DNA of 64,000 bases from Marinimicrobium agarilyticum DSM 16975 (GTDB taxonomy: Bacteria; Pseudomonadota; Gammaproteobacteria; Pseudomonadales; Cellvibrionaceae), in NCBI RefSeq assembly GCF_000423345.1, contig NZ_AUHU01000005.1, positions 1-64,000 on the forward strand. Reading direction: 5' to 3'. Under the pieces are notes generated by a model. It was not told where the DNA came from and did no database searches. It saw only the letters and a program-made list of their open reading frames with translations. Shown here piece after piece: positions 33,280-60,317 of this stretch. The position numbers and the translations under genes were made by a program. The first letter of the stretch is position 1, and every line of letters begins with the position of its first letter.

Positions 33280-33293
33280 GCTATGGAGCGAAG

Positions 33294-33402
33294 GCTGGCG
33301 GTGGGGTAGACCCTTTCAAGACACGCCGTAAACCCATCCTTGGGGGCTCGAATCGAGGGTCCCCCGCTCCACGGTCTTGAAAGGGTCTACCCCACCGCCA
33401 GC
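33294..33402. repeat. 109-bp long inverted repeat after trpS
   Basis: Perfect 29-bp arms at 33294-33322 and 33374-33402 (first arm starting GCTGGCGGTGGGGTAGACCC) flank a 51-nt centre. The centre folds again (GGGGG with CCCCC, CTCGA with TCGAG). It could act as a strong terminator or cruciform; the compound structure looks like a genome-dispersed intergenic element or a miniature mobile element. No other copy is in this window. Confidence 0.85.
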
Positions 33403-33436
33403 TGGCCAGCACGAGCCATCGATTAACCCAGACTCC

Positions 33437-33466
33437 GTAGGGTAGGTAAGCGAAGCGCCACCTACC
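33437..33466 (+). repeat. solitary REP element (GTAG type)
   Basis: The element is the tetranucleotide GTAG followed by an imperfect palindrome whose arms are GGTAGGT and ACCTACC around a GCG/CGC inner stem. It is identical over all 30 bases to the minus-strand copy at 55463-55492 next to the REP-associated transposase gene. Confidence 0.85.
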
Positions 33467-54662: not shown

Positions 54663-54753
54663 GGAGAGGTGGCCGAGTGGCTGAAGGCGCTCCCCTGCTA
54701 AGGGAGTATACCCTAATCCGGTATCGAGGGTTCGAATCCCTCCCTCTCCGCCA
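54663..54753 (+). tRNA. tRNA-Ser(GCU)
   Basis: This 91-nt tRNA has the acceptor stem GGAGAGG/CCTCTCC, the anticodon stem-loop CTCCC-CTGCTAA-GGGAG with anticodon GCT, and the long variable arm typical of serine tRNAs. The T arm is GAGGG-TTCGAAT-CCCTC, with discriminator G and an encoded CCA. It reads AGC and AGU codons. The position next to csrA is conserved in related bacteria. Confidence 0.97.
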
Positions 54754-54925: not shown

Positions 54926-55444
54926 ATGTCGAATTACCGACGAAACCCCGTTCCGGGTGGTACTTTCTTTTTCACTGTGACACTGGCCGATCGGCAGGCG
55001 GATTGGCTCGTTCGCCATGTTGATGTATTGCGCGAAGTGGTTAAAGCGGTCAGGCAACGAAGCCCCTTCCTAATCGACGCTTGGGTGGTCTTACCGGAAC
55101 ACATTCATGCCGTCTGGACGTTACCCCATCTCGATAACGATTACCCTGGCCGCTGGCGGGAGATAAAAAAGCAATTCTCAAAAATGGTGCGTGCCCTTGA
55201 GGGGCCTGACCGGGTACCCGATGCGGGGGCATTGTGGCAGCGGCGTTATTGGGAGCATACGATCAGAAACGAGCGCGATTATCGGGCCCATATCGATTAT
55301 GCGCACTTTAATCCCGTGAAACATGGGTGGGTGGATCGTGTCGTGGATTGGCCTTATTCCACATTCCATCGGGCGGTAAAAGCGGGATGGTATCCCGAGG
55401 ATTGGGGTGGAAAGGGAGTGGTGAATTTGCAGGCGGGGGAGTGA
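54926..55444 (+). CDS. REP-associated tyrosine transposase (RAYT)
   Basis: The 172-residue protein belongs to the Y1/HUH (IS200-like) TnpA_REP group. It has YRRNPVPGGTFFFTVTLADR at the N-terminus, the HUH-type pair in VLPEHIHAVWTLP (His-x-His, about 57-69), and the catalytic Tyr region RNERDYRAHIDYAHFNPVKHG (at most one of the Tyr is the nucleophile, about 113-133). Such single-copy, domesticated transposases bind GTAG-headed REP hairpins and are thought to spread them. Two REPs in inverted order begin 19 bp after its stop codon. ATG 54926 has GGAG 7 nt upstream; the longer frame from 54797 overlaps the tRNA terminator. Confidence 0.9.
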   Translation: MSNYRRNPVPGGTFFFTVTLADRQADWLVRHVDVLREVVKAVRQRSPFLIDAWVVLPEHIHAVWTLPHLDNDYPGRWREIKKQFSKMVRALEGPDRVPDAGALWQRRYWEHTIRNERDYRAHIDYAHFNPVKHGWVDRVVDWPYSTFHRAVKAGWYPEDWGGKGVVNLQAGE

Positions 55445-55462
55445 TGGGTTGTGCGGGGCAAT

Positions 55463-55547
55463 GGTAGGTGGCGCTTCGCTTACCTACCCTACGCGCGGAT
55501 TAAATTTCGTCACCGTGTAGGGTAGGTAAGCGCAAGCGCCACCTACC
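55463..55547. repeat. inverted pair of REP elements (BIME) next to the RAYT gene
   Basis: A minus-strand REP (55463-55492) and a plus-strand REP (55517-55547) face outward around 24 bp. Each has GTAG followed by a hairpin with GGTAGGT and ACCTACC arms. The second has one extra base in the inner loop. Together they also separate the RAYT gene from convergent valS and may end transcription of both. Confidence 0.9.
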
Positions 55548-55565: not shown

Positions 55566-58424
55566 CTACAAACTCTCAATCCGCCGCAACTGCTCCTGCA
55601 GTTTACCCAAGGCGGATTTCAACCCTTCCAACCGATCGCGCTCCTTATCGACCACGGCTTTCGGCGCCTTGTCGACAAAGCTCGCATTGCTAAGCTTGCC
55701 CTCGGTTTTCTGAATATCCTTCTCCAACTTGGCGACTTCCTTATTCAATCGCTCCAGCTCCGCTTCCTTGTCGATCAAGCCGGCCATGGGAACGAGCAAC
55801 TCAAGGTTGCCCGCCAGGGCGGTGGCGGAGACCGGGGCTTCATCCCCCGGGTTCAACCAGGTGACGCCTTCCAACGCGGCGATTTTGATCAGCGACTGGC
55901 GGTTTTCCTCCAGGCGGCGTTGATCATCGTCCGAGCCGTTGTAAAAGAACAAAGGCAACTTCTTGGCGGGGGAGATGTTCATTTCCCCGCGGATATTGCG
56001 GATACCCAGAATCACCGCCTTGAGCCATTCGATATCCGCCGAGGCGGCTTCGTCGATTTTGGCATCGTCCGCGACCGGGTAGGGCGCCTGCATGATGGTC
56101 TCGCCCGAGGCTCCGGCCAAAGTCTTGATCTTCTGCCAGATTTCTTCGGTGATAAACGGCATCAGAGGGTGAGCCAGACGCAGGGTGGCTTCGAGCACCC
56201 GGATCAGAGTGCGACGCGTGCCACGTTTTTGCTCGGCGCTGGCGTTTTCGTCCCACAGGGTGGGCTTGGACAGCTCCAGATACCAATCGCAGTATTCGTT
56301 CCAGACGAACTCGTACAGTGCCTGCGCGGCCAGATCCAGACGGTAGCTGTCCAGGGCCTCGGTTACCGCCTTCTCCGCCACCTGCAGACGGGAAACGATC
56401 CACCGGTCGGCCAGTGAGAGAGCGATTTCACCGCCGTTTTCCCCGCAGTCCTCGCCCTCGCACTGCATCAGTACATAGCGGGTGGCGTTCCAGATTTTAT
56501 TGCAGAAGTTGCGGTAGCCTTCCACCCGGCCCATATCGAATTTGATGTCCCGCCCGGTGGAGGCCAGGGAGCAGAACGTAAAACGCAGCGCATCGGTGCC
56601 GTAGGCGGCGATGCCATCCGGGAATTCCTTGCGAGTCTGCTTTTCAATTTTCTGGGCATCCTTCGGACGCATCAATCCGTGGGTGCGCTTGGCGACGAGG
56701 CTTTCCAGATCGATGCCGTCAATGATATCGAGCGGGTCCAGCACGTTGCCTTTGGACTTGGACATCTTCTGGCCGTAGCTGTCGCGTACCAGTCCGTGAA
56801 CATAGACGGTTTCGAACGGTACCTGGGGCTTGCCGTTCTCGTCTTTGATCAGGTGCATGGTCAGCATGATCATCCGGGCGACCCAGAAGAAAATGATATC
56901 GAAACCGGTGACCAGCAGATCCGTCGGGTGGAATTTTTTCAGGAAGTCGGTCTGCTCGGGCCAGCCCAGCGTCGAGAAGGTCCAGAGTCCGGAGCTGAAC
57001 CAGGTGTCGAGCACGTCCTCGTCCTGGTGCAGTTTCGTGCTCTGGTCGAGCCTGTATTTGCTGCGGATTTCCGCTTCATTGCGGCCCACATACACCTTGC
57101 CGTTGTCGTCATACCAGGCAGGAATACGGTGGCCCCACCACAGCTGACGGCTGATGCACCAGTCCTGAATGTCACGCATCCAGGAGAAGTACATGTTTTC
57201 GTATTGTTTGGGGACGAACTGAATCCGCCCGTCTTCCACCGCCTCAATGGCCGGCTCGGCCAGCGGCTTGGTGCTGACATACCATTGGTCGGTGAGCCAG
57301 GGTTCGACCACCACGCCGGAGCGGTCGCCGCGAGGCTGCTTGAGCGCGTGGTCTTCGATTTTATCCATCAGCTCGGCGGATTCCAGCGCCTCGACAATGG
57401 CCTTGCGCGCCGCGTAGCGGTCTTTGCCGGCCAGTTCGGCGGGCAGAGCAGTGTCGATGTCGGTGCGGGTCTGACCGGCGTAGTTGAACACCTGGGCGGT
57501 ACCCAGAATGGCCGCGTCTTTATCCAGCACGTTGATCAGGGGCAGGTCATGGCGCTTGCCCACTTCGTAGTCATTGAAATCGTGCGCCGGCGTGATTTTC
57601 ACGCAGCCGGTGCCGAAGTCCTGATCCACATAATCATCGGCAATGATCGGAATGCGACGGCCCACCAGGGGCAGTTCGATGAACTTGCCCACCAGAGAGG
57701 CGTAGCGCTCGTCTTCCGGGTGCACGGCGACGGCCGAGTCGCCCAGCATGGTTTCCGGGCGGGTGGTGGCGACCACGAGATAGGTTTTGCCTTCGGCCGT
57801 CTTTTCGCCATCGGCGAGCGGATAGCGCATGTGCCAGAAAAAGCCTTTCTCGTCGTGGTTTTCCACTTCGAGGTCGGAAATGGCGGTGTGCAGCTTCGGG
57901 TCCCAATTGACCAGGCGTTTGCCCCGGTAGATCAGACCGTCTTCGTACAGGCGCACGAACGCTTCCTGAACCGCGGTGGACAGGCCATCGTCCATGGTAA
58001 AACGCTCGCGGCTCCAGTCCAGGGAGGAGCCCAACCGGCGCAGCTGGCGGGTGATGTTGCCGCCGGACTCGGCCTTCCACTGCCAGACCTTCTCCAGAAA
58101 CTTTTCCCGCCCCAGGTCGTGCCGGTCCTGCCCTTCGGCGGCCAGCTGCCGCTCGACCACCATCTGGGTGGCAATGCCGGCGTGGTCGGTGCCCATTTGC
58201 CACAGAGTGTCGTCGCCCTTCATGCGGTGGTAGCGGATCATGGCGTCCATTACCGCGTTGTTGAAGCCGTGGCCCATGTGCAGGCTGCCGGTCACGTTCG
58301 GCGGTGGGATCATGATGCAGTAGGGGTCACCCTCACCGCGGGGTTTGAAGTAACCTTTCTCTTCCCAGGTCTGGTACCACTCGCGCTCGATGGCGTGGGG
58401 GTTGTACGTTTTTTCCAAAGACAT
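55566..58424 (-). CDS. valS: valyl-tRNA synthetase
   Basis: The 952-residue class I enzyme begins [20 protein letters not shown]. It has the HIGH motif in [16 protein letters not shown] (about 42-57), the editing domain with [10 protein letters not shown] near 220, the KMSKS loop [20 protein letters not shown] (about 553-572), the anticodon-binding domain and a C-terminal coiled coil ([20 protein letters not shown]). It charges tRNA-Val and edits Thr-tRNA-Val. Start at 58424 chosen because relatives begin MxKTYxPxxIE; an upstream in-frame start at 58487 adds 21 unlike residues. Confidence 0.97.
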
Positions 58425-58559
58425 GCGGTAACCTGTACTAAGCTTGGAAGGAATCTTTTTCTGAAGCTCAAGTCTCTGAGGCGACAAGATTCCCTACGGA
58501 CTGGCGTGAAACCCGCGATTATACAGCTTCACGCCCCACCGGCCTACCGGGAGGTGACG

Positions 58560-60246: not shown

Positions 60247-60317
60247 GGCGGGTGCGCTTCGCTTACCACGCCCTACGACAATATCGGGTAGGGCGCGGTA
60301 AGCGAAGCGCACCCGCC
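60247..60317. repeat. second REP pair (BIME), GC-rich variant
   Basis: A minus-strand copy (60247-60276) and a plus-strand copy (60288-60317) differ at one base from each other. They share the GTAG head and GGTAAGCGAAGCGC core with the RAYT-adjacent REPs but have GC-rich outer arms (GGCG/CGCC-like). They lie between the convergent acyl-CoA dehydrogenase and glutathionyl-hydroquinone reductase genes. Confidence 0.88.

Follow-up and report, generated by a model that had tools for sequence, protein, structure and literature searches.

The question raised by this locus is whether a RAYT (REP-associated tyrosine transposase) gene with REP hairpins of its own, accompanied on the same DNA by REPs of a second sequence type, belongs to a single transposase system or reflects two transposases with different specificities. 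The stretch analyzed, called the window here, is 64,000 nt long (positions 1 to 64,000 of contig C4) and belongs to a 4.5-Mb genome in 29 contigs (G000). It carries the following features.

33290–33406, plus strand: repeat element "E", a long hairpin whose apical part is conserved, separated by 30 nt from the 33437 REP.
33437–33466, plus strand: dispersed class A REP standing alone, with the same sequence as the one at 55463–55492.
54663–54753, plus strand: tRNA-Ser(gct), the upstream neighbor of RAYT, kept in three species.
54926–55444, plus strand: RAYT of TnpA-REP group 2, 172 aa, identified by NF047646, the 4ER8 match and alignment.
55463–55492, minus strand: class A REP, GTAG-GGTAGGT-AA-GCGAAGCGCC-ACCTACC, 3′ of RAYT.
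55517–55547, plus strand: class A REP with one extra loop base, in a tail-tail dimer with 55463–55492.
55566–58487, minus strand: valS (valyl-tRNA synthetase), so named from its sequence, the conserved downstream neighbor of RAYT.
60247–60276, minus strand: class B REP (GGCG-T-GGT ... ACCCGCC) with a bulged T.
60288–60317, plus strand: class B REP with a bulged C, in a tail-tail dimer with 60247–60276 across an 11-nt spacer.

The earlier note on this DNA had described a RAYT gene with its own outward-facing REP pair, and the gene and the pair are both real: an ATG at 54926 opens the 172-aa ORF, and two REPs follow within 55463–55547. "Outward-facing" is right for the hairpins, but the GTAG heads lie inward and face each other across the 24-nt spacer, as in a tail-tail dimer. 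The REP at 55463–55492 folds as DNA at -8.2 kcal/mol (z -3.9). The identity that had been noticed with the copy at 33437–33466 is borne out by an exact 31-nt inverted match between 33436–33466 and 55463–55493, 21,996 nt apart, and the pair at 60247–60317 is, as had been said, a GC-rich variant with the GTAG head and the TAAGCGAAGCGC core in common with the RAYT-adjacent REPs. The same note had spoken of a complete system, which is correct as regards the RAYT and the ~160 REPs of the genome but not as regards the upstream side, since no REP was found between tRNA-Ser and the RAYT start and both REPs are 3′ of the gene. According to a definition said to go back to Nunvar in 2010, a RAYT unit is a gene with inverted REPs on both flanks; with inverted REPs absent from the upstream side the locus is therefore not a canonical flanked unit, while the protein is still filed as a RAYT. 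REPs on the upstream side do occur beside the RAYT in sister species, and the missing one here was probably lost secondarily.

The protein matches the NCBIfam model NF047646 (REP_Tyr_transpos) with 179 bits (cut-off 80) and the general Pfam model Y1_Tnp with 15 bits only. Its residues 1–172 match E. coli TnpA-REP (4ER8) end to end with an E-value of 1.6e-53, and residue roles were assigned through this alignment, which places the HuH motif at H59xH61 and the catalytic tyrosine at Tyr125 and recovers an equivalent of K82. Besides the family match, the HuH motif and the tyrosine, the group-2 features found comprise the NP(L/V)(R/K)xG motif, here NPVKHG, and the C-terminal Gly-Glu extension (G171-E172, aligned with G160-E161 of 4ER8), which group 3 lacks. 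In its full-length protein, HuH, Tyr, K82 equivalent and Gly-Glu the system thus resembles the E. coli group-2 REPtron (REP y, z1, z2; PMC8266576; 4ER8), in which K82 and the C-terminal Gly-Glu contact the bulge and the GTAG. By analogy with the E. coli enzyme, this RAYT would bind the REP as folded single-stranded DNA and cleave it in a strand-specific manner, with contacts to the GTAG head, to the internal loop of unpaired AA and GC(C) and to T11 in the lower stem; it would cut next to the REP and move or copy REP dimers (REPINs) between genes. Searches of the genome with Pfam Y1_Tnp and NF047646 returned one intact RAYT gene and no second group-2 RAYT, together with the relic of a Y1 transposase, degraded and interrupted by internal stops (C8:178833–179120); its 18 bits to NF047646 make it a remote match, and no REP was found up to about 1.5 kb to either side of it.

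The REP population was counted with the general pattern GTAGGN{4,7}TAAGN{4,16}CAYCNNMC, using the reversed pattern as control. As there were 160 matches genome-wide against 1 for the control, REPs are far above chance, and 158 of them were parsed with their flanks into stem classes.

Class A: GGTAGGT/ACCTACC, 42 of the parsed REPs.
Class A′: GGTTGGT/ACCTACC, with a T.T mismatch, 25.
Class B: unpaired pyrimidine in the 5′ arm, GGYR-Y-GGT/ACCYRCC, 33.
Class C: GGCGGAT/ATCCGCC and near variants, 23.
Class D: GTCRGGT/ACCYGAC and kin, 19.
Other stem classes: 16.

There are thus more than two classes, and they form a graded series with compensated stems: pair 6-33 is GC in 98 copies and TA in 16, pair 7-32 is TA in 74, CG in 38 and other in 2, pair 10-29 is GC in 95 and AT in 19, and pairs 5-34 and 11-28 are invariant. 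Class A folds into GTAG, a 7-bp stem, AA facing a 3′ internal loop (GCC) and a short tip stem, with the first G of that loop shown paired in the tip by energy folds; the class B stem consists of 4 bp, the bulged C or T and 3 bp, and short B copies have GC in place of the GCC of class A. Apical tips such as GGCGTCAGCC are common to A, A′ and B. Folds of A, B and C all present the GTAG head, imperfect hairpin and AA-GC type internal loop of GTAG REPs, and the copies are numerous, extragenic in the sampled regions and arranged in inverted dimers (28 TT, 17 HH and 4 HT genome-wide). At C1:656125–656481, a short unit (acccaaccgcggttgacgcaccc...) is repeated in tandem between two A′ REPs, an arrangement absent from the sister species.

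E. coli TnpA-REP requires the GTAG, the unpaired AA-GC bulge, T11 and G32 and leaves the tip sequence free; G32 is a contacted base, and the change G32C impairs both binding and cleavage (PMC8266576). The REPs described here share with those of E. coli the GTAG head, the stem interruption of AA versus GC, an invariant T11 (in all three species compared below), variable tips and inverted dimers. They differ from them in the 3′ loop (GCC versus GC), in the lack of a REP upstream of the gene and, in the main class, in an A at position 32 instead of the contacted G: this position is A in 74 of the 114 unbulged copies here and G in 193 of the 201 REPs of the sister species. The GTAG-3 REP family (Di Nocera et al., 2013, PMC3733652) is likewise similar in its non-complementary di- or trinucleotides between stem and loop, its GC/GC and GGC/GCC loop termini and its excess of TT over HH dimers, but may differ from the present REPs in the stem sequences of A, B and D.

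What the classes mean was addressed by comparison with two congeners (G001 and G002), in which the RAYT likewise lies between tRNA-Ser and valS, at the same locus. The RAYT is 65% identical between this species and the sisters, as compared with 93% in ValRS and Ask and 98% in CsrA. Horizontal replacement of the gene was considered and is not supported, as the RAYTs of the three congeners form one clade in a tree of 92 proteins (support 100/99). The gene is under purifying selection: dN/dS between the sisters is about 0.08 (dN 0.045, dS 0.60), and dN from the sisters to this species is 0.27, at which distance synonymous sites are saturated. The REPs adjacent to this gene are of class A here and of class C (GGCGGAT...ATCCGCC) in both sisters, where class C is also the dominant class. 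Genome counts in G000, G001 and G002 are 65, 0 and 0 for A, 33, 3 and 8 for B, 15, 48 and 229 for C, and 19, 0 and 0 for D, so that 15 class C copies are still present in this genome; classes A and B were not found in the other 55 relatives searched, and the RAYTs of the closest outgroups are accompanied by REP classes that are related yet different. An orthologous, syntenic RAYT is thus associated with differing REP classes, each abundant in its own genome. In a further relative (G024, locus L038), REP dimers lie in a tandem array with a period of ~212 nt, next to a RAYT copy interrupted by internal stops.

We therefore favor, with a probability of roughly 85%, a single group-2 REPtron in which one vertically inherited RAYT has undergone a switch of REP class (orthoswitch), the classes not being targets of separate enzymes. 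According to this reading, classes A, A′, B, C and D would be variants of one lineage, and after the split from the two sisters the RAYT-adjacent REPs would have switched class, probably from C to A, a direction based on two sisters that are themselves close to each other; class A would then have risen to be the commonest genome-wide, leaving class C as a minor remainder. That the RAYT has a REP family of its own is supported by the ~160 copies, the one intact RAYT and the species-specific class found beside it, and this REP population is presumably mobilized by the RAYT, by analogy with the biochemistry of E. coli TnpA-REP.

In order to follow individual sites, a gene-by-gene alignment with G001 and G002 was made for two stretches, namely the window and 117 kb of contig C1. 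The latter was picked for its REP density, so that the frequency of sites in it is not representative while the association within it is. A first scan, in which many matches came from element E and not from unique flanks, was replaced by this gene-anchored table. Intact REPs were present here in 13 of the 70 gaps of 1 kb or less, and G002 has a REP in 13/13 of these against 8/57 of the rest (p 4e-9); among tandem gaps alone the figures are 3/3 and 5/44 (p 0.0035). The class at these shared sites differs between this genome and G002. All 11 G001 sites, counting remnants, are G002 sites too, and G001 holds REP remnants in several of the shared gaps.

These data bear on a variant of the favored reading, in which ancestral REP sites were kept and class C was converted in place to A, B or D, by gene conversion or driven by the RAYT. 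The coincidence of sites with a change of class, also in the tandem gaps, and the remnants in G001 are consistent with it. On the other hand, the dimer spacers at shared sites, where homology was sought as proof of such conversion, have no recognizable homology between species, several G001 sites are clean short gaps as independent insertions predict, gaps between convergent genes or at operon ends are natural hot spots, and one of the two regions was selected for REP density. The pattern can be read either as replacement in place or as repeated insertion into the same permissive gaps, and we regard the former as possible, though on the doubtful side. The fuller proposition that the class at nearly every persisting site was overwritten to that found beside the single RAYT while the RAYT contact at pair 7-32 changed from G32 to A32 appears rather unlikely.

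The earlier note had suggested that the two subclasses reflect two transposase specificities, such that the RAYT acts on class A while class B, as at 60247–60317, was spread by another RAYT that is lost or elsewhere. Copies are not few, and class B does differ from class A in two stem pairs and by its bulged pyrimidine; its copies in the window also have a shorter internal loop on the 3′ side. It also occurs in the sister species, which means that it at least partly predates the split; the site of the 60247–60317 pair in G001 has no insertion. Tail-tail dimers are mostly of one class (14 same-class, 3 mixed A/B), and the Y1 relic might be what is left of a second enzyme. Against this, the only candidate is that remote relic without nearby REPs, mixed A/B dimers exist, the tips are common to A, A′ and B, and E. 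coli TnpA-REP accepts three REP types, tolerating changes in the tip and the upper stem (PMC8266576). Since the repeat class has changed around the same RAYT gene, two REP types do not point to two transposases, and the suggestion is improbable, although some partial specificity may persist given that the dimers pair assortatively. Another reading, in which selection maintains the hairpins for a role in RNA, as terminators or mRNA stabilizers, and the RAYT is incidental, is scarcely credible. The REPs of the sampled regions do lie in gaps between genes, often convergent ones, which would suit such a role, but a function as terminators alone does not account for species-specific changes of class that follow the copy beside the RAYT, for a GTAG head that is conserved and unpaired, or for the arrangement in dimers.

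Element E, the neighbor of the 33437 REP, does not belong to the REP/RAYT system. It consists of a conserved apical part of 51–52 nt on a long stem, whose arms are complementary in 93 of 98 copies, with a median of 28 paired bases and no mismatch in 63, and differ in sequence among all 93; a three-way junction was predicted in 2 of 3 folded copies. The three congeners hold 144, 82 and 99 copies, and the element was found in 21 of 58 relatives, many of them without this RAYT (further copies are, e.g., L173, L166, L172 and L315), while an Rfam search gave no family above the gathering score. The orientation of E with respect to the GTAG end of REPs is biased 34:0, which at first suggested a composite unit, an idea that was rejected: many E copies form inward-facing pairs, the bias arises because REPs lie within such pairs, and no functional link is claimed. 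At an aligned site at C1 ~727,940 (L317, L323 region) the orthologous E arms are the same in both sisters, unlike those of different copies within a genome. Element E may be more unusual than the REP finding itself.

As regards the class switch around a single RAYT, systems of a RAYT and its REPs are known already, and such a switch has been named in print. In the orthoswitched REPs of Pseudomonas and Stenotrophomonas (Nunvar et al., 2013, PMC3686654) there are likewise several related classes of which one is RAYT-associated, and the RAYT of close relatives is linked to another class; unlike those cases, the present one concerns a different genus and bulged group-2 REPs. In the model of Nunvar et al. 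old copies decay in place while new ones spread, whereas here the sites are largely shared in the sampled regions; the mechanism, according to those authors, can only be guessed. New in the present case, a clean one with three species, are the change of stem pair 7-32 from C-G to T-A, at a base contacted by E. coli TnpA-REP, and the observation that each REP-bearing gap of the sampled regions is also REP-bearing in one sister, with another class. The joint change of a RAYT and its repeat specificity is an unsolved problem, and three congeners with one RAYT locus and two REP classes make cross-cleavage tests of their co-evolution straightforward. The shared-site pattern further allows in-place replacement to be tested against re-insertion and, if true, in-place REP replacement would supply a mechanism for the orthoswitch.
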